Source of the DNA: a virus
Length of the DNA: 39,577 nt
Virus record (IMG/VR): IMGVR_UViG_3300013126_000084
Location: 1-39,577 of that record
Direction: 5' to 3' (one strand)
Shown: in pieces, positions 6,616 to 19,296 of the stretch
How positions within the stretch are numbered: position 1 is the stretch's first letter
Layout: every line of letters starts with the position of its first letter
Program-made: the position numbers and the translations under genes
Notes under the pieces: model-generated
What the model was told of the DNA's origin: nothing
Database searches by the model: none
The model's input: the letters and a program-made list of their open reading frames with translations, nothing else

Positions 6616-6749
6616 GTAATAAAATGATTAAGGACTTGGTAGATATTAGTTATAGATTGGCAGATGAGAAGGATTATGATGACAAGATAGCACCAAAGCT
6701 ACAACGCATCATTGACTATTTAAAACAACAAGGAGAAAAGCATGAGTAA
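6612..6749 (+). CDS. Small hypothetical protein (45 residues)
   Basis: The frame starts at an ATG with AGGAG eight bases upstream and overlaps the preceding stop by four bases. The product (MSNKMIKDLVDISYRLADEK at the N-terminus) is an amphipathic charged helix pair. No family is recognised. Clean RBS and tight packing support it as real. Confidence 0.65.
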   Translation: MSNKMIKDLVDISYRLADEKDYDDKIAPKLQRIIDYLKQQGEKHE

Positions 6750-6921
6750 ATTTTATGGCGAGGAGTATGCCAAAGTAGTGTGGCGAGCAGAAGATATTAA
6801 AAAGATAAAACCTAGATGGTCAATGAGTAAGTGTGAGGAGTGGATAGCTGATAATGAAGAATTCATACAAGACCGATTGACTGAAATAGGTTGGGATATC
6901 ATTGAAGGAAAACTAAAATGA
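6742..6921 (+). CDS. Small hypothetical protein (59 residues)
   Basis: It starts at an ATG after AAGGAG and overlaps the previous gene by eight bases. The Trp-rich, acidic product has VVWRAEDIKKIKPRWSMSKC in the middle and EEWIADNEEFIQDRLTEIGW near its end, a pattern I know from small phage proteins of unknown role. It ends in an ATGA overlap with the next gene. Confidence 0.68.
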   Translation: MSKFYGEEYAKVVWRAEDIKKIKPRWSMSKCEEWIADNEEFIQDRLTEIGWDIIEGKLK

Positions 6922-7163
6922 GTAATAAAACCACAATCATTTTAAGTATTAACTCGGATATTGTGTCAAGGTTTTTATTTGATGACTACATAAATGCTTG
7001 TAATGACGCAGGAATGGTGGTAAGGTATGAGCCGTATACTAGAGATATGTATGCAGAACTCAATGCCAAAGCACTAGACATTGAGAAACAAGATGCTCTT
7101 GCATCACTTGAAGAAGAAATCTTAAACAATGTTGCCTGTGTCAACGGGAATTGTGAAGACTAA
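6918..7163 (+). CDS. Hypothetical protein (81 residues)
   Basis: It begins at the ATGA overlap, with GAAGGAAAA upstream. The N-terminus (MSNKTTIILSINSDIVSRFL) is strand-like, the C-terminal half is an acidic helix with ASLEEEILNN, and the end has two cysteines (ACVNGNC). No family is recognised. Confidence 0.68.
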   Translation: MSNKTTIILSINSDIVSRFLFDDYINACNDAGMVVRYEPYTRDMYAELNAKALDIEKQDALASLEEEILNNVACVNGNCED

Positions 7164-7179
7164 CTAAAAGGAGAAACAT

Positions 7180-7221
7180 ATGAAATCAATCTATTCATTC
7201 GTGGGATTAGCCACATTCTAA
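7180..7221 (+). CDS. Possible 13-residue leader peptide
   Basis: A mini-gene, MKSIYSFVGLATF, has an AAGGAG seven bases before its ATG and ends in TAA. Its stop touches a hairpin at 7221-7237, and the wall hydrolase gene follows about 50 bases later. It may be a leader whose translation affects the hairpin, or simply a decayed gene start. The strong ribosome-binding site is the main support. Confidence 0.4.
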   Translation: MKSIYSFVGLATF

Positions 7222-7237
7222 TAGCCATCTCGGCTAT
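7221..7237 (+). promoter_or_regulatory. Hairpin between leader peptide and wall hydrolase gene
   Basis: ATAGCC and GGCTAT pair perfectly around a 5-base loop, followed by ATTTAAA rather than a T-run. It is too weak for a good terminator but could slow ribosomes or RNases ahead of the lysis gene. Confidence 0.4.
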
Positions 7238-7274
7238 ATTTAAACTCGTATAAACAAATATAAAGGAGGTCAGT

Positions 7275-7661
7275 ATGATTGACCAAGCTTTACTTTGTCT
7301 TGCCACGACCATATACATGGAGTCAGCAACCGAACCTCGTGAAGGGCAGATTGCCGTAGGCTATGTGTTGATGAGGCGAGCCGAATTTAATCACAAGAAT
7401 GTGTGTAGTGAAATGAAACGACCATATCAGTTTAGTTGGTATGGGTTAGTTAAACCACCTTCGGTTATCCGACAATACTATTTTGATATTGCTTATCGTG
7501 TATTACATAGGTTAGAGGTTGATTATAGTTATGGTGCGACTAACTTCCATGACACCACCATAAGTAAGCCGAAGTCATGGTATAGATTAGAACCCGTAGT
7601 CAAGTGGTCTAATCTTATTTTTTATAAACAAAAAGGAGAGAAGTATGCAAGTGCAGATTAA
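7275..7661 (+). CDS. Cell wall hydrolase of the SleB type (probable endolysin)
   Basis: This 128-residue enzyme fits the Hydrolase_2 (SleB) domain over almost its whole length. CLATTIYMESATEPREGQIA (residues 8-27) carries the catalytic glutamate (E16). It is followed by VGYVLMRR, a VCSEMKRPYQFSW segment (42-54), ATNFHD (about 97-102) and a closing VVKWSNLIFYK. SleB-type enzymes are lytic transglycosylases that cut peptidoglycan glycan strands. No signal peptide is visible, so export would need a holin or another route. AAAGGAGGT precedes the start. It lies in the rightward block beside a lipoprotein and membrane proteins, which suggests a lysis module. Confidence 0.85.
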   Translation: MIDQALLCLATTIYMESATEPREGQIAVGYVLMRRAEFNHKNVCSEMKRPYQFSWYGLVKPPSVIRQYYFDIAYRVLHRLEVDYSYGATNFHDTTISKPKSWYRLEPVVKWSNLIFYKQKGEKYASAD

Positions 7662-7893
7662 ATTAACAGATGAACAAGTAGATGATATATTAGTAGAGGG
7701 ACTAAAAAGTGGATATGAAATTAACAAAACATTTCCCGATGAACCCAATTATTATGAAATTGACCAAGCGTTTAAAACATTACTTGCTTATTATATGGGG
7801 GATAAAAATTATGCTAAATACGCACATGATAGGGCTAAAGTTAATAAGACTTATAATGCCAAGCGTCTTGCTGATGCTCATAATGGTTTGTAG
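7645..7893 (+). CDS. Hypothetical protein (82 residues)
   Basis: It starts at an ATG after AAAAAGGAGAGAAGT and overlaps the wall hydrolase gene by 17 bases. The product is soluble, charged and Tyr-rich, with LTDEQVDDILVEGLKSGYEI at the front. The family is not recognised. Its last 38 bases are shared with the lipoprotein gene in another frame. Confidence 0.7.
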   Translation: MQVQIKLTDEQVDDILVEGLKSGYEINKTFPDEPNYYEIDQAFKTLLAYYMGDKNYAKYAHDRAKVNKTYNAKRLADAHNGL

Positions 7894-8059
7894 TGGTTGC
7901 GTAAGTTTAGCCACAAGTGTAGCTACACAAACAACTGTGCAAGTAGTAGGTGAACAATACTTAATAGCACAAAACAAGCCTATTATAAGGTGTAATCTAT
8001 TTAATGTAGCTAAAGGTAATAAAATGTGTAGAGTTTATAAACAATATAGGAGAGCATGA
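7856..8059 (+). CDS. Small lipoprotein, possible outer-membrane spanin
   Basis: This 67-residue product begins with MPSVLLMLIMVCSGCVSLATS, a short lipoprotein signal with the lipid-modified cysteine at residue 15. The mature part has about 53 residues with two further Cys. The start lies inside the preceding gene in a different frame, a nested arrangement typical of outer-membrane spanin (Rz1-like) genes. The nearby wall hydrolase and membrane proteins fit a lysis role. The Pro-rich mature part of Rz1 is absent. A longer frame from 7709 is unlikely because it would bury the signal. The lipoprotein call is good, the spanin call tentative. Confidence 0.6.
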   Translation: MPSVLLMLIMVCSGCVSLATSVATQTTVQVVGEQYLIAQNKPIIRCNLFNVAKGNKMCRVYKQYRRA

Positions 8060-8265
8060 TGGATAAAAAATATGAAGGCACAGGGTTTGTATTGGTAGGT
8101 TTTATTGTAGGTTGTTGTTTAACATGGGCAATCATGCAGTATATCCATGTGCAAAAGAAATATAAAATGAATTTAAAATGTGTGCAAGGGGAATTGTATG
8201 AAGAGATTAAACCTAACTTTTATATTAAGTCGCACTTGGAATGCTTTGAGCAAAGGAGTTTCTAA
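8059..8265 (+). CDS. Small membrane protein of the lysis neighbourhood
   Basis: The 68-residue product has one hydrophobic helix at about residues 8-28 (GTGFVLVGFIVGCCLTWAIM), followed by a basic then acidic soluble part. TAGGAG lies six bases upstream of this ATG; an ATG three bases earlier overlaps the lipoprotein stop. The topology would fit an inner-membrane spanin or another lysis accessory protein, but the soluble part has no clear coiled coil. Confidence 0.65.
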   Translation: MDKKYEGTGFVLVGFIVGCCLTWAIMQYIHVQKKYKMNLKCVQGELYEEIKPNFYIKSHLECFEQRSF

Positions 8266-8266
8266 C

Positions 8267-8383
8267 ATGGATACAATCGCATGGTTGACAGCACTATACA
8301 TAGCTATAAGTGTAGGTGTTATAATTGATGACCACAAAAGTAAAGAACAACAAGAACCACCAAAGGTAGAACAAACAAAATGA
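8267..8383 (+). CDS. Very small membrane protein, possible holin
   Basis: This 38-residue product has one membrane helix (residues 2-21, TIAWLTALYIAISVGVIID) and a short hydrophilic tail rich in Lys, Glu and Pro. AAAGGAG precedes its ATG. A single-helix protein with a charged tail next to a wall hydrolase could be a pinholin-like factor. The evidence is only topology and position. Confidence 0.6.
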   Translation: MDTIAWLTALYIAISVGVIIDDHKSKEQQEPPKVEQTK

Positions 8384-8559
8384 GTTTGCCTTTTACCTAT
8401 GCAGTCGTTGATGATGACGGCGAAGTCTTACGCAAGTATAGATGGTCAGCTAAAGAGGCGAAGTGGCATAAGGAACAAGGGAGTAATGTCATCAAGCTAG
8501 AAGAAGTTAAAGAAGTTAAGGAAGACTTATTTGCCCTAGTGGGTGAATGTTTATTTTAA
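8380..8559 (+). CDS. Hypothetical protein (59 residues)
   Basis: It starts four bases before the previous gene ends (ATGA). The N-terminus, FTYAVVDDDGEVLRKYRWSA, looks like a small beta-hairpin domain, and the C-terminal half is an acidic Lys/Glu helix. No family is recognised. It shares one base with the next start (TAATG). Confidence 0.65.
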   Translation: MSLPFTYAVVDDDGEVLRKYRWSAKEAKWHKEQGSNVIKLEEVKEVKEDLFALVGECLF

Positions 8560-8762
8560 TGTATACCAAGTTAGATGATTGGCGACAAGCCCACAAAGTT
8601 AACGAAATACTACGGAGTAATCCGTCTATCACACAAAAAGAACTTTGTAAGAAAATCGTAACGAATTGGCACAGGTTAAAATACCTAGAGCAACAAGGAT
8701 ACTTAACATTAAAAAGGAGAAACGCAAATGATGCAAAAACAAATACCCTTATTTGCGAATAA
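8559..8762 (+). CDS. Small winged-helix-like protein, probable DNA-binding
   Basis: In this 67-residue product, residues 16-50 read VNEILRSNPSITQKELCKK and then WHRLKYLEQQGYLTLKRR. This is the helix-turn-helix plus wing pattern of small winged-helix proteins. The start follows the previous stop directly (TAATG), so translation is coupled. A regulator of early genes is possible. Confidence 0.62.
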   Translation: MYTKLDDWRQAHKVNEILRSNPSITQKELCKKIVTNWHRLKYLEQQGYLTLKRRNANDAKTNTLICE

Positions 8763-8904
8763 CGCAAATTGGGAAACAATCAAAAAGAATAAATTCTTTA
8801 CAGGGAATTATTCTCATTTCAATTCACCACGCACAGAGTTAGAAGCTATGCGTAATGCCATGACACGCACATGGAACTTAAATACAAGGGAGTATTTAAA
8901 ATGA
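8728..8904 (+). CDS. Hypothetical protein (58 residues)
   Basis: AAGGAG lies eight bases before the ATG, inside the previous gene, giving a 35-base overlap in another frame. The product (MMQKQIPLFANNANWETIKK at the start) is polar with no membrane segment. The N-terminal QIPLF resembles a short clamp-binding-like peptide, but that may be chance. No family is recognised. Confidence 0.62.
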   Translation: MMQKQIPLFANNANWETIKKNKFFTGNYSHFNSPRTELEAMRNAMTRTWNLNTREYLK

Positions 8905-9137
8905 AGCTAAAAAAGTTTCTTTTGGAGTGGATAATATTACATGGTGATAATTGGGTATTTCATAAAGACCTAGACATAAGCACGTATAATTTTCACCAAT
9001 GCAGAGAAGAAAAATACATAGAAGAAAAAGACATACTACCACCTAATGATAAAAGTAAGTGGGGGAGTTACTTTAAAATAACAAAAAAAGGAAGAGAATA
9101 TGCAACTTGGAAACCAACAAAGGAGAATTCAAAATGA
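8901..9137 (+). CDS. Hypothetical protein, possible winged-helix fold
   Basis: This 78-residue product starts in an ATGA overlap after AAGGGAG. It has FLLEWIILHGDNWVFHKDLD near the front and YFKITKKGREYATWKPT near the end, a layout shared with the gene at 6379-6615. The two may be diverged copies of one small DNA-binding family. Confidence 0.65.
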   Translation: MKLKKFLLEWIILHGDNWVFHKDLDISTYNFHQCREEKYIEEKDILPPNDKSKWGSYFKITKKGREYATWKPTKENSK

Positions 9138-9331
9138 AACAATGCTTTGAATGCGGTGATGACATAGCTGACGCTAGATATGCGTTAGGTTATAAGACTT
9201 GTTTATCTTGTGGTGAGAAACACGCACTCAATTATAAACATACAATAGTTCCTATGCCTAAATCCAATTACATAGTAGTAACTGATTATGAACTATTGAA
9301 AGGACTTAACTCATCACACAAAAGTAAGTAA
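9134..9331 (+). CDS. Small TraR/DksA-like C4 zinc finger protein
   Basis: The 65-residue product starts with MKQCFECGDDIADARYALGY and continues KTCLSCGEKH. The two CxxC pairs (residues 4/7 and 23/26) flank a helix exactly as in the TraR/DksA zinc finger. Proteins of this type can enter the secondary channel of RNA polymerase and change promoter output, but only the finger is present here and the long coiled coil is missing. AAGGAG precedes the start. It is the last gene before the promoter at 9352. Confidence 0.75.
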   Translation: MKQCFECGDDIADARYALGYKTCLSCGEKHALNYKHTIVPMPKSNYIVVTDYELLKGLNSSHKSK

Positions 9332-9351
9332 ATATTTTTTTCGGTATTTAC

Positions 9352-9380
9352 TTGACAATGTCAAGTATTTAGTGTATAAT
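9352..9380 (+). promoter_or_regulatory. Strong sigma70-type promoter with palindromic -35
   Basis: TTGACA (9352-9357) and TATAAT (9375-9380) are perfect boxes 17 bp apart. The -35 is part of TTGACAATGTCAA, a perfect palindrome around one central base. It opens the transcript that carries the MoxR/VWA cassette. Confidence 0.87.
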
Positions 9381-9417
9381 GTTATTTGAATTAGTAGTAG
9401 AAGTAAGTTTATCAACC

Positions 9418-9452
9418 CGTTCTGTTTTGCACTCTTTAGTGCATTTCAGAAC
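9418..9452 (+). promoter_or_regulatory. Conserved 5' UTR stem-loop, copy 4
   Basis: This is the most regular copy. The outer stem GTTCTG/CAGAAC is perfect, the internal loops are TTT/TTT, and the inner stem TGCACT/AGTGCA is perfect around CTTT. It is followed by ATAACATGAGGAG and the first gene of the cassette. Confidence 0.87.
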
Positions 9453-9472
9453 ATAACATGAGGAGTAATAGT

Positions 9473-9898
9473 ATGTCACAGAATAAAATCAATAAACAAG
9501 AACAAGAAGTCCTTTACACGCAGTTAAATCTGCTTGGTGCAAGGGAAGTCGTTGTAGAGTTTAGTGGTGCAGGCGATAGTGGTCAGATTGATAGCGTGTA
9601 TTACCTAGACAAGAACAATGAGCCACAAGATATACCTAAAGATATGATTGCATGGACATCACAAACTTACGGTCATGAACAACCTAAAACAGAAGAATCC
9701 ACGCTTGAAGATGCGATTGAAGACATTTGTTATAGGTCATTAGATGGCACAGGGTTAGATTGGTATAACAACGAAGGGGGTCAAGGTAGATTGATAATTG
9801 ACTTTAAAAAAAGCCCACCTAAAACAACACTTCATGTCGGCATCAACGAGATGACAACGGAAGACCACGAGTTTGATTTAGATGAGGAGGAAGAATAA
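9473..9898 (+). CDS. DUF6878-like protein, first gene of the MoxR/VWA cassette
   Basis: The 141-residue product starts at the ATG seven bases after AGGAG; an ATG 15 bases earlier overlaps the ribosome-binding site. The sequence opens with LNLLGAREVVVEFSGAGDSGQIDSV (from residue 19), passes through LEDAIEDICYRSLD, and ends in GGQGRLIIDF followed by a very acidic tail. I recall this pattern as DUF6878, often found with DUF6915 and MoxR-type genes in proteobacteria and phages. The biochemical role is unknown. The next gene starts in the TAATG overlap. Confidence 0.7.
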   Translation: MSQNKINKQEQEVLYTQLNLLGAREVVVEFSGAGDSGQIDSVYYLDKNNEPQDIPKDMIAWTSQTYGHEQPKTEESTLEDAIEDICYRSLDGTGLDWYNNEGGQGRLIIDFKKSPPKTTLHVGINEMTTEDHEFDLDEEEE

Positions 9899-10239
9899 TG
9901 AATACTCATTATCATTCTAAAACATCTGTAAAGAAGTGGGGAGGTGTTGAAGCTGACTACCAACCTATCCATGATTGGTTTGACGCAACGAAAGAATGCT
10001 TTGCCGATGCAAGACATCGTGCTATCAGACACCATGCACAAGGTATATTTGAATGTGAAAGACAATTTGGATTATACATTGTGAATAGTGATGGGCGTGA
10101 AGTTCCTACACGCTTAATAGGTGAACAACATGTTAAAGAAGATTGTGGTGGTTGGATACCAACCATGCAAGATTGGCTTATGAACATGAAGTTCGTCAGT
10201 TGGATGAATAGAGGTTATGACATGAAGGAGGGAGAATAA
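9898..10239 (+). CDS. DUF6915-like protein
   Basis: This 113-residue product has the features I recall for DUF6915: KWGGVEADYQPIHDWFDATK (residues 13-32), then ADARHRAIRHHAQGIFECE (about 37-55), FGLYIVNSDGREVPTRLIGEQHV and a closing PTMQDWL. Many conserved His, Asp and Trp residues suggest a folded, perhaps metal-binding domain, but no activity is established. Translation is coupled to the previous gene by TAATG. Confidence 0.72.
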   Translation: MNTHYHSKTSVKKWGGVEADYQPIHDWFDATKECFADARHRAIRHHAQGIFECERQFGLYIVNSDGREVPTRLIGEQHVKEDCGGWIPTMQDWLMNMKFVSWMNRGYDMKEGE

Positions 10240-10240
10240 A

Positions 10241-11092
10241 ATGGGTTTCCATATCAATGTTTACAACATGCCTCGTATTGAAACATATGACAGGGCAAAA
10301 GAAGATTTTAATAGCAGAACAGTTGTGCGTGGCGAGAGCCAATCAATCCGTAGACTAGGCGATAGATACGAGAAAGAAAAGTGGATACGCAAGGATATTA
10401 TTGATGGTATTGAAGTGTATGTTGCAGGATATTACGACACGGATTTAGTAAGGTTCTATCCAACACACAAAGAGATAACGCTAGGTAGTTATCCGTCACA
10501 AAGCACAGAGTATTTTGTTTGGTATATAAGTGGGCATAGTTTACGAGACTTTGAACATAAATACTATGTGCCATCACCATTTACAAGAAGTCCGATGGTT
10601 AAAAATCATCAGATTGAATGTGAAGTATGGATAGGTGGTGATACTTATTATATGAATGCTCGTGATTGGTATGCCATAAGCTATGACAACAAAGCATTAT
10701 ATCCCGAACAGTTTGAGAAACCTGTTAAGTATAAGTTTGATGCAAAACAAATGCGTGAGTTACGTTTGCCATACAAAAAGTTATTGAAGTATGCAGACAC
10801 CATGCTGAAATTAACTAATGGTGAAGGTGTAGAAAACGATGCAGAGTTAAATAAACAATCAGAAGAATATCGTTTACCTGAATATTCAAAAAATCTGTTA
10901 CCACTTTGTGCTGATGAGGATAAGACAAATTTAGCATATTACAATGTGTTAAGACAATGTCAGCATATAAAATGGTTAGGTAATTACCCTAATCATAAAG
11001 AAAGTTCATATTGCAACATAGGTATATTTAAAAGGTATTTAGATAAACATATTAAGTTAGAAAACCCACAAGTTTTAGTAGAAGTAAATTAA
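10241..11092 (+). CDS. Hypothetical protein (283 residues)
   Basis: It follows the DUF6915-like gene after one base, with GGAGGGAGA upstream. The first two thirds are rich in Tyr, Trp and Asp with beta character (GIEVYVAGYYDTDLVRFYPT). Residues 170-210 include MRELRLPYKKLLKYADTMLK, and the last part is helical with NLAYYNVLRQCQHIKWLGNY. I do not recognise the family. It shares a transcript segment with the two preceding genes and may act with them. Confidence 0.72.
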   Translation: MGFHINVYNMPRIETYDRAKEDFNSRTVVRGESQSIRRLGDRYEKEKWIRKDIIDGIEVYVAGYYDTDLVRFYPTHKEITLGSYPSQSTEYFVWYISGHSLRDFEHKYYVPSPFTRSPMVKNHQIECEVWIGGDTYYMNARDWYAISYDNKALYPEQFEKPVKYKFDAKQMRELRLPYKKLLKYADTMLKLTNGEGVENDAELNKQSEEYRLPEYSKNLLPLCADEDKTNLAYYNVLRQCQHIKWLGNYPNHKESSYCNIGIFKRYLDKHIKLENPQVLVEVN

Positions 11093-11094
11093 CC

Positions 11095-11129
11095 CGTTCC
11101 GTTTTGCACTTTATAGTGCACATCAGAAC
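11095..11129 (+). promoter_or_regulatory. Conserved stem-loop, copy 5 (before the MoxR-like gene)
   Basis: A perfect inner stem TGCACT/AGTGCA with a TTAT loop and an outer stem GTTCCG/CAGAAC with one C-A mismatch. No consensus promoter was seen just upstream, so this copy probably sits within a longer transcript. TATAGGAGAGAG follows, then the ATG of the AAA+ gene. Confidence 0.82.
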
Positions 11130-11149
11130 ATTTTATAGGAGAGAGTATC

Positions 11150-12196
11150 ATGCAACAAGAAATTAGTTTGAAACAAGCAGAAGAGTTGATTGCAACAGTA
11201 GGTCGTGATGTTACTATTCACATGCGTGGTCAACCTGGCATTGGTAAATCATCAATTTTGAAATCATTGAGTGCTAGATTTCCCAACCATACACCTGTGT
11301 ATATAGATTGTGCAGACCTAGATTTGGGCGACCTAGCTATGCCTGCCATGAATCATGAAAGCAAGACAACAACATTCTATCCGAATGAACGCTTTGCTAT
11401 CCATGACAACAAACCTGTCATTATCATGTTAGACGAGATTACTAAAGCTAGTGAGCCTGTCAAGAACATGTTGCTACCTGTCATGCTAGAACGCAGACTT
11501 GGTGCAGTTAAATTTCACCCTGATAGCATCGTGTATTCCACAGGTAATCTTACAACAGATGGTGTTGGCGATAGTATGAAAGCACATGCCAAGAACAGAT
11601 TGACTTCTGTAACTATTCGTAATCCTAACGATGACGAGTGGATTAACTGGGGTGTAGACAACGGCATAGCACCTGAAATACTAGCGTGGGTTAAACAGTT
11701 TCCTCATGCACTAGCGTGTTATACAGATGACTCACAGAAAGAGAACATGTATATATACAATCCTCGTAAGCAACAAGATGCGTTTGTATCCCCTCGTTCG
11801 TTGGAGAAAGCATCGCATATTGTTAAGAACAGACACACACTCGGTGAAGAAACTACTATGGTAGCACTTACAGGCACGCTTGGTGAGTCAGCCTCTCGTG
11901 ATATGTCTGCATACTTTAGTCTTGCCGATGGACTGCCGACCAAAGAAAGTATCTACCAAGAACCTGAAAAAGCTACCTTACCAAGCGACCCCTCTGCTCG
12001 TGTTATTCTTGTCATGCGAGAACTAATGACTATTACAGATAAACATATGGATGCGTGGTTGACTTACTTACAACGCTTACCAATGGAGATACAAGCATTG
12101 TTTGCCGTAAACATTATGGCATCATCACGCAAAGCAGTTGCGGCTCAAAACAAATCGTTTGTTGATTGGGCAGTTAAAAATAACCAATACTTCTAG
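11150..12196 (+). CDS. MoxR-like AAA+ ATPase
   Basis: This 348-residue ATPase belongs to the MoxR/CobS-like (AAA_5) branch. Walker A is at residues 27-34 (GQPGIGKS), Walker B at 91-96 (IIMLDE), sensor 1 at 130-133 (STGN), and a likely arginine finger at R150. MoxR proteins form hexameric chaperones that remodel or load cofactors into partners, usually together with a VWA protein encoded nearby. Here such a VWA protein is encoded four genes downstream in the same stem-loop-delimited segment. The N-terminus is short, so little besides the ATPase core is present there; the C-terminal 100 residues form a helical lid. Confidence 0.9.
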   Translation: MQQEISLKQAEELIATVGRDVTIHMRGQPGIGKSSILKSLSARFPNHTPVYIDCADLDLGDLAMPAMNHESKTTTFYPNERFAIHDNKPVIIMLDEITKASEPVKNMLLPVMLERRLGAVKFHPDSIVYSTGNLTTDGVGDSMKAHAKNRLTSVTIRNPNDDEWINWGVDNGIAPEILAWVKQFPHALACYTDDSQKENMYIYNPRKQQDAFVSPRSLEKASHIVKNRHTLGEETTMVALTGTLGESASRDMSAYFSLADGLPTKESIYQEPEKATLPSDPSARVILVMRELMTITDKHMDAWLTYLQRLPMEIQALFAVNIMASSRKAVAAQNKSFVDWAVKNNQYF

Positions 12197-12205
12197 GAGA
12201 ACAGA

Positions 12206-12535
12206 ATGCGTAAAATAAATCAAGAAGACCCTAACAAAACAGGATATATAGAAGTTAAAGCATATCCAATTACATATAAATATGAAGATGACGAAAGTAA
12301 TGAAGAATATGGTTCATACATAGGAGTATGTAAAGGGACATGGCATGATGCTATTGAAGATTCATGGATAGACTATAAATGTTATTACTTTATGGATAAC
12401 GATGAATTTGAAAAAGCAAAAGTAGGTGACATTATAGGTGAAGCTATATTAACTTCAATTAGTAGAGACAGTGAAATGTCACAAACAATAATATATAACC
12501 CAAAAGAGTTTACTGAAGACGGACAAAAAATATAA
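12206..12535 (+). CDS. Hypothetical acidic protein (109 residues)
   Basis: It starts ten bases after the AAA+ gene, with TAGGAGA upstream. The product is acidic and beta-rich, with a GYIEVKAYPITYKYEDDESN start, an IGVCKGTWHDA turn and VGDIIGEAILTSISRD near the end, and looks like one small beta-barrel-like domain. The family is unknown. Its place inside the MoxR/VWA segment suggests an accessory role. Confidence 0.7.
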   Translation: MRKINQEDPNKTGYIEVKAYPITYKYEDDESNEEYGSYIGVCKGTWHDAIEDSWIDYKCYYFMDNDEFEKAKVGDIIGEAILTSISRDSEMSQTIIYNPKEFTEDGQKI

Positions 12536-12547
12536 GGGAGGTAGAAA

Positions 12548-12716
12548 ATGAGTGATATGTGTAGATGTAGTTATTTTATAAACGTCACACCAAATATAAA
12601 CAATAAAGAATGCCCTAAATTTGAGAGAGAAGATGATGAGAACTATGTGATATGCAGGCATGTTTTAATACGTGATGCAAAAGGGTATTGTGAAATAAAT
12701 TTTAAAGGAGAACAAA

Positions 12717-12727
<11 letters not shown>
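12548..12727 (+). CDS. Small Cys-containing hypothetical protein (59 residues)
   Basis: GGGAGGT lies upstream of the ATG. The product MSDMCRCSYFINVTPNINNK continues with ECPKFER, YVICRHVLIRDAKGYC and a short tail. Five cysteines and one histidine, spaced C-x-C ... C ... C-x-x-H ... C, suggest a small metal-binding domain. Its last 11 bases overlap the next gene in another frame. Confidence 0.62.
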
Positions 12728-12957
<230 letters not shown>

Positions 12958-12974
<17 letters not shown>

Positions 12975-14109
12975 ACAAAGAGTCACGAAGTCCCACATAG
13001 CGATAATGCGTAGCAAACAGTTCTGTATGTTTGCAGGGGTGTTATCGGTGGGCAAAGTAATCTTTACTGACGACATACCAACGGCATGCACCAATGGTCG
13101 TGATGTTATGTATAGCCCTGACTTCATCAAAACTCTAGATGATAAGGAGTTGAACTTTGTCGTGCTACATGAGGCTTTACACAAAGTATATCAACACATG
13201 CACTTGTGGCAAAAGCTATTCAAAGAGAATGGTCAACTTGCTAACATGGCGGCTGACTATGTTGTTAACTATGCAATACATGAAGCTGATGAACATAGTG
13301 AAATTGCTAAACGACCTGACTCAGCGTTGTTTGATATTCATTATGCAAACATGACAACCAAGCAAGTATTTGACATGCTGAAAAAAGATAGTCAGTTTAT
13401 TTCTATACGAGCAGGGCATGATACACATGATTGGGAAGGTGCTGAAAGTCTGTCTGATAAAGAAGTTAAACAGACTGCTAAAGAGATTGACCAAGCGTTG
13501 CGTCAAGGTGAAATTATCCGTAGCAAGATGCAAGGTAACAAGAACCGAAGTATAAACGAAATACTTGAACCTAAAGTAAATTGGCGTGAGCAGTTGCGTG
13601 ACTTTGTCAATGCCACCTGTCGTAACAAAGATAGAACATCATGGAAACGACCACACAAGCGTTTCATTGGGCATGATGTATATATGCCTAGCATGGTGGG
13701 TGAAACCATAGGTAAGATTGTGGTTGGTATTGACACATCAGGTTCTATTGGTCAACAAGAACTTAATGAGTTCTTAACAGAAGTTGTAGCTATATGTGAT
13801 GATGTATCCCCATCAAGTATAGAGTTGTTGTATTGGGATACTCATGTAGCAGGACATGAAACATACAATCAAGGTGATTATAGTGCCTTGGTTCAGTCAA
13901 CAAAACCTGCAGGGGGTGGTGGCACGACAGTTGGTTGCGTCAATCAGTATATCAAAGATAAACGCATCGAACCTGAAGCTATCATTATATTAACAGATGG
14001 TTTTGTTGAGAATGACTTTGGTGGTAATTGGGAATACCCAACACTATGGGCTATCACTACTCGACATATCACGTCGCCACATGGCAAGACAATTCACATT
14101 GATAACTAA
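12958..14109 (+). CDS. Metallopeptidase-like plus VWA-domain protein (DUF2201 type), partner of the MoxR ATPase
   Basis: The third of three in-frame ATGs is chosen because GAGGAG lies seven bases upstream; an upstream extension would read the GAA repeat as poly-lysine. The N-terminal domain has HExxH at residues 71-75 (HEALH) followed by NMAADYVVN (about 96-104), as in the DUF2201 metallopeptidase-like domain. The C-terminal half is a VWA-like domain with a metal-site motif DTSGSIG at 259-265, a GGGGTT turn (319-324) and TDG at 346-348. DUF2201 proteins are typically encoded beside MoxR ATPases. Whether the peptidase site is active, and on what, is unknown. Confidence 0.9.
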
Positions 14110-14111
14110 TC

Positions 14112-14146
14112 GTTTCCGATTTGCACTCAATAGTGCATTTCGGAAC
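14112..14146 (+). promoter_or_regulatory. Conserved stem-loop, copy 6 (after the VWA gene)
   Basis: The outer stem is TTCCG/CGGAA with a C-G pair where copy 4 has T-A, a compensatory change. The inner stem TGCACT/AGTGCA with a CAAT loop is perfect. ATAACATAAGGAG follows and leads into the next gene. It starts two bases after the VWA stop codon. Confidence 0.87.
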
Positions 14147-14166
14147 ATAACATAAGGAGAGAGAAA

Positions 14167-14694
14167 ATGGCAACATACTTGCGTCAAGAAATAAGTAACT
14201 ACATTAAATCAGTTACAGTTGAAATAGATTTTAATATGTTTAGTGATGGACAAATTAAAAACATGATTAAATACATTCGTAATGGTCATGTATCGAAAGG
14301 AGACTCAGCTACATCTACTGTTGTTAGAGCAATCTTTAGAAAATATTCCATGCCACATTTTTTATATGGACCATGGTGGTCTGATTGGAAAGACATCCCC
14401 AACGGTCATACTTTCTTTGAAACGCTAAAAGGGGTGGCGTCGGTTGCTAAACTTACGGCTGATAGCTATGATTTAAAACGTTTAGAAGATGACATAATAA
14501 ATGCAAACGTTCAAAGAAATACTTGCGATGTAAGAATGAGTTCGTATGATAAACATATAAGACAACAATTAAAACAAAGCATGATTATAAAAAATGAATT
14601 ACCTGATGAAGTAAAAATATTCATCGATAAGTTACAAAACAGAACACTCGGCGTAGTGTCTATGGATTTTTATGAAGTAGCTAATAAATATTAA
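14167..14694 (+). CDS. Hypothetical protein (175 residues)
   Basis: It is preceded by ATAAGGAGAGAG and stem-loop copy 6. The product is mostly helical. It opens with a RQEISNYIKSVTVEIDFNMF segment, has an aromatic middle (FLYGPWWSDWKD, near residues 65-76) and a charged C-terminal helix pair. No known domain is recognised. The gene behind it is DUF3150-like, so it probably belongs to the same cassette. Confidence 0.72.
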   Translation: MATYLRQEISNYIKSVTVEIDFNMFSDGQIKNMIKYIRNGHVSKGDSATSTVVRAIFRKYSMPHFLYGPWWSDWKDIPNGHTFFETLKGVASVAKLTADSYDLKRLEDDIINANVQRNTCDVRMSSYDKHIRQQLKQSMIIKNELPDEVKIFIDKLQNRTLGVVSMDFYEVANKY

Positions 14695-14709
14695 TAAGGA
14701 GAAAAAAAA

Positions 14710-15552
14710 ATGAGTATCAGTATATCAAGCAGTGCAGTTTTAATTGACTTAAACATATCAGTATGGACAGCTAGGAAACTAGATAAGAACGTGTCTAAAG
14801 AAATTGATGTGAATAAAAATACAACCATCAAGGCAGGTAATTATAACAAACATATCCTTGCAGGTTCAGACCAACTAGATGCAATTACCAAACTAGCTAA
14901 TGAGATACGAGATTGGCATGGTAGACAAACTCTGCCTTGGTCAGATGCAGGCACAAGGTTGTTACCTATGACTAACTTCTTTGATTACAAACAACAGTTG
15001 GGTGTGTATGAAGCTGAGTTTAAATCTCGTATAAATACCTTTATACAACAATACCCAAACATAATACAAGGTATGGCTTTCAAGCTAGGTAAGTTATTTG
15101 ATAGAGCAGAATATCCCGATGCAGACAAGATTGCATCTAAGTTTAATCTACGCTATACTATTATGCCTGTGCCTGAAACAAATGATTTCCGTGTTGATAT
15201 TGCAGACGATATTCGTAATGAGATGCAACAAGAATATCAGAAAGCATACGAAGGTCGTATTGAAGCCGCTATGTCTGACGCATGGTCTAGATTGCATACT
15301 ACGCTAGAACATATGATTGATAGATTATCAGGTGATGAGAAAAAGATATTTAGAAATAGTATGGTAGATAATGCGTTAGAGTTGACAAATCTATTAACTA
15401 GGCTTAATGTTACAAAAGACCCTAAGTTAGAGAATGCACGACAAGCACTAGAACAATCTTTAGTGGGTGTTACTGCTGATGAGTTGCGTGATAGCGAAGG
15501 TGCAAGAAAAGAAATACTAAACAAGGTAAATCAAATCATGGAGAACATATGA
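14710..15552 (+). CDS. DUF3150-like protein of the MoxR/VWA cassette
   Basis: In this 280-residue product, residues 9-30 read VLIDLNISVWTARKLDKNVS and lead into a Lys-rich linker, the opening I recall for DUF3150. The rest is helical, with LANEIRDWHGRQTLPWSDAG near residue 65 and long amphipathic helices from residue 160 onward. DUF3150 genes are often found beside MoxR or CobS-like ATPases and VWA proteins in phages and proteobacteria, and this gene sits two genes after the VWA protein. Its function is unknown. Assignment is from memory of the N-terminal motif and from context. Confidence 0.72.
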   Translation: MSISISSSAVLIDLNISVWTARKLDKNVSKEIDVNKNTTIKAGNYNKHILAGSDQLDAITKLANEIRDWHGRQTLPWSDAGTRLLPMTNFFDYKQQLGVYEAEFKSRINTFIQQYPNIIQGMAFKLGKLFDRAEYPDADKIASKFNLRYTIMPVPETNDFRVDIADDIRNEMQQEYQKAYEGRIEAAMSDAWSRLHTTLEHMIDRLSGDEKKIFRNSMVDNALELTNLLTRLNVTKDPKLENARQALEQSLVGVTADELRDSEGARKEILNKVNQIMENI

Positions 15553-15860
15553 AAATATATCATGCTATGCATGAAGACTCACCTGACATGACAAAAGAGG
15601 ATAAAGAAAAAATATCTATCCTTAAACTTGTAGATGTGGGTAGGTATGTAAAAGGTGTAGGTATTCGTGATGGACAATTCTATGTATTAGCAGAAGATGA
15701 TACAGACGAGGTGTATCTAAAATACAAAGAAGCAGTAGCAAACATTACAAAACAAATGCATAACGTAAAAATAGACCATAGGCTATTTGAACAAAAGACT
15801 ATGGAGTTTCACAACAAGAAAGCTAAGCTTGTAAAAATGATTTTGGAGACACCTACATGA
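15549..15860 (+). CDS. Hypothetical protein (103 residues)
   Basis: It starts in an ATGA overlap with the DUF3150-like gene, with GGAG upstream. The product has a beta-rich middle (ISILKLVDVGRYVKGVGIRD, then QFYVLAEDDTDEVYLKY) and a long C-terminal helix. The family is unknown. Coupled translation suggests it works with its upstream neighbour or serves nucleic-acid metabolism with the next gene. Confidence 0.7.
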   Translation: MKIYHAMHEDSPDMTKEDKEKISILKLVDVGRYVKGVGIRDGQFYVLAEDDTDEVYLKYKEAVANITKQMHNVKIDHRLFEQKTMEFHNKKAKLVKMILETPT

Positions 15861-16156
15861 AAAAGCAACCTGTGAAAGAAAAGTGGGTTAAACAACAAGT
15901 AGTAAAGATGTTGAAAGCGAGACATCTTTACTACTTCTTTCCTGTTGCAGGTCCGTATCAAAGTTTAGGTGTGCCTGATATTGTTGCGTGTGTTAGAGGT
16001 AGATTTGTAGGTATAGAATGTAAGGCAGGCAAGAACCGCCCTACCGAAATACAACTACGAAACCTTGAAGCCATACGAGATAATGAGGGGATAGCCTTAG
16101 TAGTAAATGAAGACGATTTAGAAGCTTTAGAACAACGATTGGAAACATTAACATGA
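15857..16156 (+). CDS. VRR-NUC type nuclease
   Basis: This 99-residue protein is a stand-alone VRR-NUC domain of the PD-(D/E)XK superfamily. Catalytic residues are visible in GVPDIVACVRGRFVGIECKAG: D41, E54 and K56, with the supporting Q66 in RPTEIQLRNLEAI. Phage VRR-NUC proteins are often Holliday-junction or structure-specific nucleases acting in recombination and replication. The start overlaps the preceding gene (ATGA). It opens the nucleic-acid metabolism block. Confidence 0.92.
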   Translation: MKKQPVKEKWVKQQVVKMLKARHLYYFFPVAGPYQSLGVPDIVACVRGRFVGIECKAGKNRPTEIQLRNLEAIRDNEGIALVVNEDDLEALEQRLETLT

Positions 16157-16197
16157 CAAGAATAAAAACAATATTAAATAAATACAAGGAGACAAGA

Positions 16198-16539
16198 ATG
16201 GCAAGACCAAAACATAGACTACAGCAATCATATGCTGATTATACCAATGAACAAATAAATGCTCTTGTAAAACGAGTAAGTATGGGTAGAGCAAATAGAG
16301 ATAAAGAAGATATAGTAAACAATCCACCTCACTACACACATGGTGGTATCGAAGCTATAGACTATATGAAAGCTAAGTCTACACCTGAAGAATTTTCAGG
16401 GCATTTACGCTTAACTGCTATTAAATATTTGTCAAGGGCAGGATTAAAAGAATCAACACTTATGGACTTGAAGAAAGCACAATGGTATGTTAACGAGTTA
16501 GTGGAGTTTGTAGAGAAACAGACTGTAAATTCTAAATAA
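16198..16539 (+). CDS. DUF3310 protein (T7 gp1.7-like family)
   Basis: The ATG at 16198 follows AAGGAG; a longer version from 16153 adds a Lys-rich head without a ribosome-binding site. Residues 42-105 carry the DUF3310 signature: NPPHYTHGGIEAIDYM, then GHLRLTAIKYLSRAG and KKAQWYVNELVE. The family includes the T7 gp1.7 nucleotide kinase and is common beside phage replication genes, where it is thought to act on nucleotide supply. Kinase activity here is inferred from family only. Confidence 0.9.
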   Translation: MARPKHRLQQSYADYTNEQINALVKRVSMGRANRDKEDIVNNPPHYTHGGIEAIDYMKAKSTPEEFSGHLRLTAIKYLSRAGLKESTLMDLKKAQWYVNELVEFVEKQTVNSK

Positions 16540-16688
16540 TGTGGGTATTTCAGCTTGCACTAATTTCAGGAGTTATGGTAGGATTAGAACTTAAGTTTCT
16601 AGAGGAAGACGCACCTTATGTTTTTTCTCTAGTGCTTGACTTATTCATAATTCGATTAGTGATACAAAAGCTAAAATATGTCCGATGA
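16539..16688 (+). CDS. Small membrane protein (49 residues)
   Basis: It begins in a TAATG overlap with the DUF3310 gene. The product MWVFQLALISGVMVGLELKF continues with an acidic turn and a second hydrophobic stretch (YVFSLVLDLFIIRLVI), so it probably forms two membrane helices as a hairpin. Its end overlaps the next gene by 11 bases. The role is unknown; a holin-like hairpin is one possibility. Confidence 0.6.
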   Translation: MWVFQLALISGVMVGLELKFLEEDAPYVFSLVLDLFIIRLVIQKLKYVR

Positions 16689-16875
16689 TGCAGATAAAAC
16701 CCAAGAAAGAATAGAACTTGAAGATGCCCTTCGGCGTAAAGAAATGGATGGCATCAAGTATATACAAGGAACGGGTTACTGTTTAAACTGTGGCACGAAA
16801 CTTAACAACTTAAGACGTTGGTGCGATAAAGATTGTGCCGATGATTGGGATTATCACGTTAATAAACGCAAATAA
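16678..16875 (+). CDS. Small zinc-ribbon-like protein
   Basis: The 65-residue product has a charged N-terminal helix followed by GYCLNCGTKLNNLRRWCDKD and CADDW. The spacing CxxC ... CxxxC in a short ribbon resembles small DUF2116-like zinc ribbons. It may bind nucleic acid or a protein partner. The start lies inside the previous gene with little ribosome-binding site, so coupling is likely. Confidence 0.65.
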   Translation: MSDDADKTQERIELEDALRRKEMDGIKYIQGTGYCLNCGTKLNNLRRWCDKDCADDWDYHVNKRK

Positions 16876-16885
16876 GGAGAGAGTT

Positions 16886-17080
16886 ATGGCAACAAAGTCA
16901 ACGAAGCCTACCGTTAGGGAGACTTCTGCTACGACATTCGATCGTGGCGAACGCAATCTTATCGTCACCATACATCATGGTGTTATCAAAATCAGACCTA
17001 AAGGTCTCAAGTCAGAAGAAGTTATAGACATCGCTGCAATCTATGAGCATGCAGTTAAAGCTCGTGTGAGGGGTAAATAA
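16886..17080 (+). CDS. Hypothetical protein (64 residues)
   Basis: AAGGAGAGAG precedes the ATG. The basic, beta-rich product contains RNLIVTIHHGVIKIRPKGLK and a helix SEEVIDIAAIYEHAVKAR, a simple fold often seen in small phage accessory proteins. The family is unknown. It shares a base with the next gene (TAATG). Confidence 0.7.
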   Translation: MATKSTKPTVRETSATTFDRGERNLIVTIHHGVIKIRPKGLKSEEVIDIAAIYEHAVKARVRGK

Positions 17081-17283
17081 TGGCTAAACCATATATTAAA
17101 GTAGTAAGTATTAAAGATACAAAGCAAGGTGATTGTAAGCTAACACTTGATATGAACCAAGCAGGCAGAGAAGTTATATTGCAAGCAGGCATTCAAAAAG
17201 CACTATCAGACTACACAGTAGAGAACTCAAAGAAGCTATCGTTTTGGAATAAGCTACAAATCTGTTGGAGTATATTAAGATGA
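17080..17283 (+). CDS. Hypothetical protein (67 residues)
   Basis: The product (YIKVVSIKDTKQGDCKLTLD, then REVILQAGIQKALSDY) looks like a small alpha-beta domain with an aromatic end (SFWNKLQICWSILR). Translation is coupled on both sides by TAATG and ATGA overlaps. No family is recognised. Confidence 0.68.
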   Translation: MAKPYIKVVSIKDTKQGDCKLTLDMNQAGREVILQAGIQKALSDYTVENSKKLSFWNKLQICWSILR

Positions 17284-17432
17284 ATGAGTATAGTGAAGAG
17301 TTTAAGTTATGGTATGAGAGATTTTTTCTACAAAGCCCTAGACTATGTGCATTAAAGTATGACGATGAGAAGATGTGGGAAGCATGGAAAGCAGGTTACA
17401 ACCAAGCAAAAAGAGATTTAGACAATGCCTAA
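17280..17432 (+). CDS. Small hypothetical protein (50 residues)
   Basis: It starts in an ATGA overlap and ends eight bases inside the polymerase gene. The product is helical and aromatic (EFKLWYERFFLQSPRLCALK, then MWEAWKAGYNQAKRDL). The WEAWKAGYNQAK motif is common near the end of small phage proteins of unknown role. Confidence 0.68.
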   Translation: MNEYSEEFKLWYERFFLQSPRLCALKYDDEKMWEAWKAGYNQAKRDLDNA

Positions 17433-19296
17433 ACTAATCACGTTAGACTTTGAAACATACTATGATAAAGAGTATGGGTTAAAAAAGTTTACTACCGAAG
17501 AATATATTAGAAATGAGAAGTTTGAAGTTATAGGTGTTGCAGTCAAGGCTGATGGTGTAACTAAATGGGTATCAGGCCCTTATACAGAAATTAAAGCTTT
17601 TCTTAATAGCTATAACATGCATGAGCACTTTGTGCTAGGACATAACATGAAGTTTGATGCCGCCATTCTTTCATGGCACTACAACATTTACCCCCTAGGT
17701 TTGTTTGATACTATGAGTATGGGGCAAATCTTACATGGTTTAACTGAGTCAGTATCATTAGCTAACCTGTCTAAGTTTTATGGTATAGGGGAAAAAGGAA
17801 CGGAAGTATTAGATGCTTTAGGTAAGCGACGTGTAGATTTTATGTCAAACGAAATGTGCTCTTACGCTAAGTATTGTATGAATGATGTAGAACTTACCTA
17901 TGAATTATTTACAGAAATGAAAGATAAGTTTACTGCACCTGAGATGAAGCTTATCGATTTAACTATACGTATGTTTACAGAACCTAAGTTAGAACTTAAT
18001 AAAGGTTTATTACTACGACACCTCCACGAAGTTAAAGAAGCTAAAGAAAAGCTACTAGCTACAGTGTGTGTAGAGGCTATTGCTTTACCCGCAGGAACAG
18101 ATAGAACTACTGTTGATAAAGAAGTTTTAATGAGCAACCCTAAGTTTGCAGAGTTACTTTTGCAACAAGGTGTAAATCCACCTATGAAAATAAGTTCAAC
18201 CACAGGAAAACTTACTTATGCATTTGCTAAAACAGATGAACAATTTAAAACTTTATTGGAACATGATAATCCATACGTTCAAGCGTTGGCGGCTGCTCGC
18301 ATCGGGAACAAGTCGACGATTGAGGAAACAAGAACAGAAAACTTTATTCAAATAGCTAACAGGGGTAAATTACCCGTTCCACTAAAGTATTCAGGGGCAG
18401 TCGTATCCCATCGATGGTCAGGCGTTGATGGGATTAACTTGCAGAACCTACCAAGAACATCTGAGCTACGTCGAGCTATATGTGCACCTAAAGGATATAA
18501 GATTGTAGCATCTGACTTAAATAATATTGAGTTGAGGTTAGCGTATTGGTTTGCTAAATCACAGAGAAAGTTACAGTTGATTAAAGAAGGTGTGGATTTA
18601 TACATACAGTCAGCATCAGACATAACAGGTATTAAATATGAAGAAGTAAGCAAAGATTTACGATACATTTTTAAAATAGTTAACTTATCAGGTATCTATG
18701 GAGTAGGTGCTGATAAAATGCAATCTATATTAAAACAAGGTGGTGTAGATAAAGAAATTAGAGTAGTTAAACATATTGTAAATGCATATAGAAAAGCTAA
18801 TCCTGAATTAATTAAAGCATGGGCAGATGCAGGAGAAATGTTAGAAGCCGTTCGTGCAGGGCAAGTGTATAGTATGGGTAATGGTGGGATTATTACAAGC
18901 GTTCCACATGAAGGCATGATGAAACCAAATGGTATGTTGTTAGGATTACCTAATTTGCGTAAATTAAGAACAGAACGTGGAGAGTCATGGGCATATGATA
19001 AGTTAATGGGTAAAACTCTAGTTCCTGAATATATACATCCATCTAAAACCTTTCAGCGTTGTATACAATCGTTGGCTCGTGATATAATAGCAGAACAACT
19101 AATTCAAGTATCGAAAAGATACTCTGTTGTTATGACTGTGCATGATGAGTTAGTTATGTTATGTAAAGATACTGAAGTAGATGAATGTAAATCCTACGTT
19201 CAACAATGTATGACGACTGCTCCAACATGGTGTAGCGACTTACCTTTAAATTGTGAGATAGGTGTTGGTGATAATTATATGGATGCTAAAAGGTAG
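17425..19296 (+). CDS. Family A DNA polymerase with 3'-5' exonuclease
   Basis: This 623-residue replicative polymerase shows the DEDDy proofreading motifs: LDFETYY (D8, E10), GHNMKFDA (D78) and YCMND (Y150, D154). The polymerase half shows motif A in VASDLNNIELR (D364), motif B RYIFKIVNLSGIYG (R413, K417, Y425) and motif C VVMTVHDELV (H573, D574, E575). There is no 5'-3' exonuclease domain, as usual in phages. The residue equivalent to E. coli Phe762 is leucine (L421). Polymerase, nucleases, helicase and primase-helicase lie on one strand in order, giving a nearly complete replisome. Confidence 0.97.
   Translation: MPKLITLDFETYYDKEYGLKKFTTEEYIRNEKFEVIGVAVKADGVTKWVSGPYTEIKAFLNSYNMHEHFVLGHNMKFDAAILSWHYNIYPLGLFDTMSMGQILHGLTESVSLANLSKFYGIGEKGTEVLDALGKRRVDFMSNEMCSYAKYCMNDVELTYELFTEMKDKFTAPEMKLIDLTIRMFTEPKLELNKGLLLRHLHEVKEAKEKLLATVCVEAIALPAGTDRTTVDKEVLMSNPKFAELLLQQGVNPPMKISSTTGKLTYAFAKTDEQFKTLLEHDNPYVQALAAARIGNKSTIEETRTENFIQIANRGKLPVPLKYSGAVVSHRWSGVDGINLQNLPRTSELRRAICAPKGYKIVASDLNNIELRLAYWFAKSQRKLQLIKEGVDLYIQSASDITGIKYEEVSKDLRYIFKIVNLSGIYGVGADKMQSILKQGGVDKEIRVVKHIVNAYRKANPELIKAWADAGEMLEAVRAGQVYSMGNGGIITSVPHEGMMKPNGMLLGLPNLRKLRTERGESWAYDKLMGKTLVPEYIHPSKTFQRCIQSLARDIIAEQLIQVSKRYSVVMTVHDELVMLCKDTEVDECKSYVQQCMTTAPTWCSDLPLNCEIGVGDNYMDAKR

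Follow-up and report, generated by a model that had tools for sequence, protein, structure and literature searches.

A conserved MoxR-type ATPase, metallopeptidase-VWA and DUF3150-like gene set in an early operon of an uncultivated water phage, with relatives on conjugative plasmids

The window analysed was the whole 39,577-nt stretch of the IMG/VR record IMGVR_UViG_3300013126_000084, which derives from an uncultivated water phage. The DUF6878, DUF6915, 283-aa, MoxR, VWA, 175-aa and DUF3150-like genes, which a sequence-only reading had assigned to a cassette, were all found at the claimed positions on the plus strand. The promoter placed in front of them was also borne out, as the TTGACA and TATAAT elements, spaced by 17 bp (9352-9380, plus strand, as read from the sequence), match the sigma-70 consensus perfectly. 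Its -35 element sits inside a palindrome, TTGACAATGTCAA, that is common to relatives. Near-perfect promoters (at least 11 of 12 positions) were located 5' of DUF6878 in 7 of 18 relatives and 5' of the 283-aa gene in 9 of the 32 relatives where this gene opens the operon, versus 0 of 224 control segments. The DUF6878 protein (9473-9898; PF21798, 3.3e-21) probably starts at 9473, the start favoured by the RBS, while the ORF list gave 9458. It is followed by the DUF6915 protein (9898-10239; PF21866, 1.1e-43), which is highly conserved in the loci that have it (dN/dS 0.06), and by an orphan 283-aa protein, p283 (10241-11092), with no family match. The fold predicted for p283 was confident, and a comparison with the PDB gave no match with E ≤ 1e-3. 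A second orphan, the fast-evolving 175-aa protein p175 (14167-14694; dN/dS 0.40), lies between the VWA and DUF3150-like genes. The cassette had been proposed to end at 15860, but the operon continues on the plus strand from a 103-aa protein (15549-15860) into a Holliday-junction-resolvase (Hjc)/VRR-NUC-like nuclease (15857-16156; phrog_93 endonuclease, 3e-16), followed by DUF3310 (16153-16539). The nuclease and DUF3310 genes were found together with the operon in relatives too. The entire operon is located in the early/DNA-metabolism region, 5' of DNA polymerase A and a PD-(D/E)XK exonuclease, with the late genes on the minus strand.

Three of these genes stood out from the others. The protein encoded at 11150-12196 was assigned as a MoxR-type AAA+ ATPase from its Walker A (GQPGIGKSS), Walker B (IIMLDE) and sensor 1 (STGN) motifs and its AAA_5-type core (2.5e-6, above the Pfam cut-off; phrog_1297, 2.6e-54), and the key motif residues were kept in 55-56 of 56 relatives. 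The protein encoded at 12958-14109 is a predicted DUF2201 metallopeptidase-VWA protein of the phrog_1314 (7e-85), N4 gp25-like family, with two Pfam matches exceeding the cut-off (PF13203, 3.2e-26; PF09967, 3.9e-17). It contains the HEALH motif, the third-ligand Asp in AAD and the MIDAS motif DTSGS...T...D. These HExxH, third-ligand and MIDAS residues were invariant in 56 of 56 homologues, so the loss of active residues that would have told against the sequence-only reading was not seen. The PHROG label of this family, 'HNH endonuclease', was ruled out, given the metallopeptidase and VWA matches in Pfam. The third protein (14710-15552) is DUF3150-like; its match to PF11348 (1.5e-4) scored 21.6 bits, below the gathering threshold of 24.9 bits, and 20.2 bits in the own-genome search. 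Its predicted structure was of modest confidence (pLDDT 70, pTM 0.45) and had no PDB match with E ≤ 1e-3, and the adaptor role suggested below is consequently only positional.

The viral loci were scanned using MoxR peptides alone as the query. Among the MoxR loci with enough flanking sequence, VWA was present in 64 of 64 and DUF3150 in 50 of 50, and the order MoxR>VWA>DUF3150 was constant in 55 distinct environmental viral loci. In locus L066, the three genes are contiguous, with gaps of 25 and 30 nt, and in many relatives VWA begins 15-16 nt past the end of MoxR. The median dN/dS values were 0.08 (MoxR), 0.13 (VWA) and 0.09 (DUF3150), compared with 0.26-0.40 for p283, DUF6878 and p175; the three genes are real and under strongly purifying selection. 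These data supported the proposed MoxR-VWA chaperone and conserved gene set, and the missing co-occurrence that would also have told against the sequence-only reading was not seen. The accompanying claim of at least five further proteins of unknown function held for DUF3150, the only family tightly coupled to the MoxR-VWA pair in phages and plasmids alike; the 283-aa, 175-aa and DUF6878 genes evolve faster and are less firmly linked to the set. Similarly, of the four small partners ascribed to the ATPase, only the HExxH-VWA protein stood. The remaining ORFs on the plus strand, of 109 aa (12206-12535), 59 aa (12548-12727) and 85 aa with a poly-Glu tail (12717-12974), are private to this genome, as none had a match in any fetched locus at E 0.01. 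The poly-Glu ORF overlaps the start of VWA and was ruled out as a VWA partner owing to its absence from every relative. The VWA gene most likely begins at the ATG at 12958, within the end of the poly-Glu frame, giving 383 aa; therefore, the poly-Glu/poly-Lys stretch would lie outside the VWA protein.

The nearer cellular relatives of the set were found on conjugative plasmids. The RavA-ViaA and CobS-CobT systems, to which the pair had been compared, are analogues and, like NorQ-NorD and CbbQ-CbbO, combine a MoxR ATPase with a MIDAS-bearing VWA partner, but lack DUF3150. Their targets are respiratory complexes (RavA-ViaA), cobalamin (CobS-CobT), NO reductase (NorQ-NorD) and Rubisco (CbbQ-CbbO). 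When the plasmid protein was used to fetch bacterial loci, each of the 10 retrieved had all three families. In IncP-7 pCAR1, AAA-DUF3150-VWA correspond to ORF101-103; the ATPase-DUF3150-VWA genes are contiguous in Burkholderiales plasmids, including Cupriavidus pRK1-1, and in Rhodovastum, and are arranged as ATPase...DUF3150-VWA in Simplicispira. The order is AAA-x-ssb-bet-exo-DUF3150-VWA in IncC and recT-exo-x-MoxR-DUF3150 in pT82A, while a Manganitrophus plasmid carries DUF3150 with no MoxR-VWA nearby. The phage cassette shares with the plasmid cassette the presence of the three families in one cluster, and HExxH/Asp/MIDAS are kept in the pCAR1 and phage VWA types alike. The plasmid cassettes differ in order (AAA-DUF3150-VWA versus AAA-VWA-DUF3150 in phages), in their neighbours (ssb-bet-exo or PRTRC) and in the longer, NorD-like VWA protein of pCAR1 and IncC. 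The DUF3150 branches are distant. The pCAR1 member scored 307 bits, an intermediate Cupriavidus protein was just under the cut-off, and hhalign of the pCAR1 and phage proteins gave a probability of only 29% (E 6e-4). The motif [VL]LIDLxISxWTARK is nevertheless common to both, pCAR1 LLLVDLSGIHLWTARK corresponding to AVLIDLNISVWTARK in the window. Matches to the pCAR1-type DUF3150 came from 1118 plasmid records, of which 969 were conjugative. The first genome scan gave no chromosomal homologues of the phage DUF3150, and querying genomes with the plasmid protein retrieved only Cupriavidus/Ralstonia-group loci.

The MoxR and metallopeptidase-VWA pair itself was already known in phages. In group 2.2 jumbo phages, MoxR adjoins a vWA protein whose N-terminal domain is a metallopeptidase; virion assembly was proposed and DUF3150 was not described (PMC7824862), whereas the present cassette lies in an early operon of a smaller phage. 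The AAA/vWFA pair gp24/gp25 of N4, which N4-like roseophages retain and which is transcribed among the N4 middle genes (PMC2784036, PMC4193335), belongs to the same two families (phrog_1297/phrog_1314; identity about 20-31%), and the ATPase and VWA genes studied here are likewise adjacent and in the same orientation. The VWA profile matched Presley gp33, and 709 phage records contained relatives of VWA by tblastn. The pair does not always require DUF3150, as none was detected in the stretch that was read around the ATPase-VWA genes of Presley (N4-like) and Bacillus phage G. In contrast to the VMAP/bpMoxR ternary conflict systems (PMC7159879), the phage cassette has neither a bpMoxR domain (13.5 bits; cut-off 27) nor a VMAP or beta-propeller third component (no match in the Pfam search). 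The new elements are the coupling of DUF3150 to the pair as a third component and the links to cyanophage MinM2/Pag-Yong1 and to plasmids.

Our tentative preference is for an early AAA+/VWA remodelling complex that acts in DNA-phase establishment rather than virion assembly, an explanation we regard as quite possible. Its core would be a three-protein machine in which a MoxR-type ATPase forms the ring and a VWA/MIDAS protein, with an intact zinc-metallopeptidase-like domain of its own, acts as co-factor; DUF3150 would be the dedicated third subunit, perhaps an adaptor or a substrate-presenting protein. The complex, produced in the early/DNA-metabolism phase under a single consensus promoter and from an operon segmented by genome-specific leader palindromes, may remodel, and possibly also cleave, some nucleoprotein or host assembly met by the incoming mobile element during establishment and replication of its DNA. 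Remodelling for DNA establishment appeared the most likely because the distant plasmid module adjoins or interleaves the ssb-bet-exo recombination genes. The phage operon running into a resolvase-like nuclease and the middle-gene status of N4 gp24/gp25 are in line with this. Given the distant relatives on conjugative plasmids, the job is probably common to phages and plasmids entering a new cell. That same distribution agrees with counter-defence or host takeover, in which the complex would dismantle a defence or regulatory assembly of the host in the early stage of infection or following conjugative entry, as both kinds of element face defence at entry; the variable small neighbours in the early operon and the interleaving of the IncC relative with ssb-bet-exo fit as well. 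However, anti-defence genes typically turn over fast, whereas the triad has a dN/dS of about 0.1 and is invariably present in the clade; neither a defence target nor, in the literature searched, such a function was found, making this explanation rather unlikely.

A virion-assembly chaperone with proteolytic maturation, whereby MoxR and the metallopeptidase-VWA protein would remodel and process structural proteins, is unlikely. It was already proposed for the same domain architecture in the group 2.2 jumbo phages (PMC7824862), has an archaeal MoxR-VWA precedent in the tail assembly of Acidianus two-tailed virus, as far as the citing paper (PMC7824862) describes it, and accords with the four virion proteins encoded near the gp24/gp25 homologues of roseophage RPP1 (PMC4193335). 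The plus-strand operon in the early region, opposite the minus-strand late genes, and the occurrence of the triad on conjugative plasmids, which form no virion, argue against it. All three genes were missing from the complete genomes of DSL-LC04, HTVC027P and 023Pt_psg01 (large terminase 48-54% identical), but these phages share little with the window beyond TerL and the SNF2 helicase and therefore oppose a virion role only weakly. Cellular MoxR-VWA pairs (NorQD, CobST, CbbQO) act in metal or cofactor insertion, and the annotation of the pCAR1 homologues as CbbQ_C and NorD-like would suit a similar chaperone activating a phage or host metalloenzyme. This is highly improbable, as the phage MoxR had no CbbQ_C match in Pfam, and no chelatase, NOR or Rubisco gene was detected either within the window or as a neighbour of the module. 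Besides free phages, more than a thousand plasmid records contain the three-gene set by way of its remote DUF3150 branch; among them is IncC, whose backbone many resistance plasmids share. Its target, once found, would explain a step common to phages and plasmids, and the HExxH, MIDAS and DUF3150 motifs offer clear mutants.

The three predicted stem-loops were confirmed on the plus strand at 9419-9452 (5' of DUF6878; outer GTTCTG/CAGAAC, inner TGCACT/AGTGCA), 11096-11129 (5' of MoxR) and 14114-14145 (5' of the 175-aa gene). A further plus-strand copy lies 5' of a 111-aa ORF (about 5518-5551), with weaker copies near 5892 and 3904. Counted on both strands, with each palindrome entering twice, the core pattern matched the window 13 times versus 0.5 expected. 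Of the MoxR leaders of relatives, 40 of 51 had nested palindromes of differing sequence (0.5 expected), as did 38 of 41 leaders of the 175-aa gene (0.65 expected), the expected values being derived by counting palindromes against shuffles. A single sequence type occurs within a genome and differs among genomes, with almost nothing shared even where MoxR is about 90% identical. An Rfam search of 3500-17500 gave no match for the stem-loops. A purely RNA reading was weakened by the stem mismatches (10 G-U versus 21 A-C), since RNA pairing should favour G-U; the rarity or lack of promoters in the MoxR and p175 leaders leaves room for it. The role of the Extended Start-Associated Sequences (ESAS), which the palindromes resemble, has been open since 2011. 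As in the ESAS of cluster K mycobacteriophages (PMC3203893), the inverted repeats lie just 5' of starts, several per genome, with a consensus that varies among phage groups and departures that do not favour RNA pairing. An ESAS, however, comprises a 13-bp SAS, GGGATAGGAGCCC, and a 17-bp inverted repeat (PMC3203893), while the phage leaders read ...AACATAAGGAGAGAG... and lack the SAS; they work like ESAS but are not ESAS. A candidate cognate regulator is the diverged protein p229 (3954-4643, plus strand), the sequence of which tends to follow the palindrome type of its genome. In a bolder and rather doubtful proposal, the MoxR/metallopeptidase-VWA/DUF3150 proteins would form a ternary AAA+ machine specific to mobile elements, serving phage and plasmid DNA establishment and, in the present phages, under the control of a fast-switching recognition code in which p229 and its palindromic leader sites would change jointly between otherwise near-identical phages. 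Like ESAS, the leader palindromes offer a natural experiment on how a regulator and its sites diversify together.

All genes that the sequence-only reading had named were found in the window, and profile searches bore out the DUF6878, DUF6915, MoxR/AAA_5 ATPase and DUF2201 metallopeptidase-VWA calls; the DUF3150-like protein did resemble its family, with a Pfam score just under the cut-off. The 283-aa (p283, 10241..11092, + strand) and 175-aa (p175, 14167..14694, +) proteins were orphans in family searches. The MoxR-VWA-DUF3150 module is real and conserved. Among 67 viral loci fetched with MoxR peptides as the scan query, the VWA gene was present in all 64 loci with at least 2 kb downstream of MoxR, and DUF3150 in 50/50 with at least 4.5 kb. 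The order MoxR (11150..12196, +), VWA (12958..14109, +), DUF3150 (14710..15552, +) was constant in 55 loci with differing MoxR sequences, with MoxR-VWA spacers of 13 to 522 nt and VWA-DUF3150 spacers of 30 to about 2500 nt. The spacers held differing small genes from locus to locus, and the 109-aa, 59-aa and poly-Glu genes, previously counted as parts of the cassette, had matches in none of the fetched loci. The HExxH and MIDAS residues were retained as invariant in 56/56 sequences, as were the Walker A Lys and the Asp following HExxH. Median dN/dS against the window was 0.08 for MoxR, 0.13 for VWA, 0.09 for DUF3150 and 0.06 for DUF6915; the 283-aa, DUF6878 and 175-aa proteins had higher values, 0.26-0.40. 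The predicted structures of DUF3150 (pLDDT 70) and p283 (pLDDT 88.5) had no PDB match at E <= 1e-3, and these models gave no clue to function.

MoxR-VWA pairs of phages are already known; this analysis adds DUF3150 and the connection to plasmids. As an IMG/VR record the window is linear; its group includes contigs of 59-66 kb, and its nearest named phages by large terminase were DSL-LC04, 023Pt_psg01, pelagiphages HTVC027P/HTVC023P and cyanophage MinM2/Planktothrix phage Pag-Yong1. Only the MinM2/Pag-Yong1 group had detectable DUF3150 relatives among named phages, in the order ATPase-x-DUF3150-x-x-x-VWA. N4-like Presley and Bacillus phage G carried the ATPase and VWA, with no DUF3150 found by profile within the stretch read. 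DUF3150 relatives occurred in 42 plasmid records, mostly of Burkholderiales, with contiguous ATPase-DUF3150-VWA on plasmids of Cupriavidus and Rhodovastum and all three genes close together in Simplicispira; the three were also together in 10/10 bacterial contigs retrieved by searching with the plasmid protein. The pCAR1 order is AAA-DUF3150-NorD-like VWA, a cassette described as conserved in R478, Rts1, SXT and R391 (PMC2642839), and that of IncC is AAA-x-ssb-bet-exo-DUF3150-VWA. Phage and pCAR1 DUF3150 matched weakly by profile comparison alone (29% probability, E 6e-4); their alignment had [VL]LIDLxISxWTARK in common, and HExxH, the Asp and MIDAS were retained in the VWA of both types. The pCAR1-type DUF3150 had matches in 1118 plasmid records, 969 of them conjugative. 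On a Candidatus Manganitrophus plasmid, DUF3150 (7989-8876) adjoined AAA, DUF1257 and DUF2997 genes, another family context, with MoxR and DUF2201 absent around it. No mention of DUF3150 was found in the open-access literature searched. The label of HNH or homing endonuclease that N4 gp25-like metallopeptidase-VWA proteins commonly bear (PHROG phrog_1314, many GenBank records) is apparently an annotation error.

Sequence comparison has shown a coupled, conserved ATPase/VWA/DUF3150 set with intact catalytic residues, located in an early operon and common to conjugative plasmids. What is established about MoxR-VWA systems leads to the expectation that the VWA subunit docks on the MoxR ring through its MIDAS and recruits a client, which the ATPase then remodels. 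DUF3150 would then be the adaptor or client-presenting subunit, and the client may also be a proteolytic target of the metallopeptidase-like domain. Virion assembly has been proposed for the MoxR-VWA pair of group 2.2 jumbo phages (PMC7824862); however, plasmids have no virion to build, the operon leads on to nuclease and polymerase genes, and N4 gp24/25 are middle genes (PMC2784036, PMC4193335). These three points lead us to favour a putative role in the DNA phase. Three complete genomes whose terminases are related to that of the window also lack the triad, which argues against assembly, but they have little else in common with the window.

Genome-specific leader palindromes are an unexpected accompaniment of the module. 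The three noted stem-loops were located 5' of DUF6878 (9419..9452), MoxR (11096..11129) and p175 (14114..14145), with more copies upstream. They are nested palindromes directly 5' of the ribosome-binding site, with an outer and an inner stem of 5-6 bp each, a short internal loop between the two and a terminal loop of 4 nt. In unselected counts per gene leader, with expectations from shuffles, they occurred in 40/51 MoxR (expected 0.5), 38/41 p175 (0.65), 11/22 p229 (0.55), 9/33 p283 (0.25) and 7/18 DUF6878 leaders (0.2), against 0/56 VWA, 0/20 DUF6915 and 2/55 p99 comparison leaders. By the same criterion the + strand had 144 distinct elements and the - strand 8; these figures are not normalised for the + strand carrying most genes. 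Median similarity was 0.82 within and 0.45 between genomes, with 0/500 permutations reaching the observed mean, and both arms changed together between genomes. In one 66-kb record, all four exact window-type copies were at 57-65 kb. The MoxR of locus L035 (start 8001) was 99% identical to that of L014 and had an L014-type leader, the remaining L035 leaders being of another type; it looks like a recombinant that carried its own leader along.

The promoter at 9352 was confirmed as a perfect TTGACA-17-TATAAT, and consensus promoters also preceded p229 and either DUF6878 or p283. In the early promoters (9352-9364 and those of relatives), the -35 region was within a conserved palindrome, TTGACA[AT]TGTCAA, with no genome-specific form, which suggests a candidate shared operator. 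Since promoters scoring at least 11/12 occurred in only 1/50 MoxR leaders and in none of the p175, VWA or DUF3150 leaders, the palindromes 5' of MoxR and p175 probably lie within a single long transcript. Stem mismatches (G-U 10, A-C 21) did not favour G-U, a pattern that fits a DNA site bound by protein just as well as an RNA hairpin; the discoverers of the cluster K ESAS used the same reasoning (PMC3203893).

A candidate partner is the fast-diverging p229 (3954-4643, +), with little-conserved homologues at the same place in relatives reaching that far (e.g., L014:1714-2334, L034:1452-2072). When 31 genome pairs sharing at least 88% MoxR identity were compared, p229 identity tracked palindrome similarity (Spearman 0.56, versus 0.17 for MoxR; partial Mantel controlling for MoxR, p = 0.022, 15 genomes). 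Most other tested genes were below p229; DUF6878 (0.88) and DUF6915 (0.65) were above it, on 6 genomes only. That p229 follows the palindrome type of its genome is only suggestive, because the link was noticed before the test, the comparison took in several genes, and the pairs are not independent. The p229 gene itself often had a leader palindrome and a consensus promoter. It adjoins a 115-aa SprT-like metalloprotease (3227-3574; Pfam 2.6e-5, just under the cut-off). The 2545-aa product of the largest gene (27172-34809, -, the late strand) has a zinc-protease-like HEIGVH motif. DUF6915 (9898-10239) is another uncharacterised family common to phages and plasmids: 111 phage records, chiefly from Streptomyces phages, and 224 plasmid records, chiefly from Rhodobacterales, have relatives of it.
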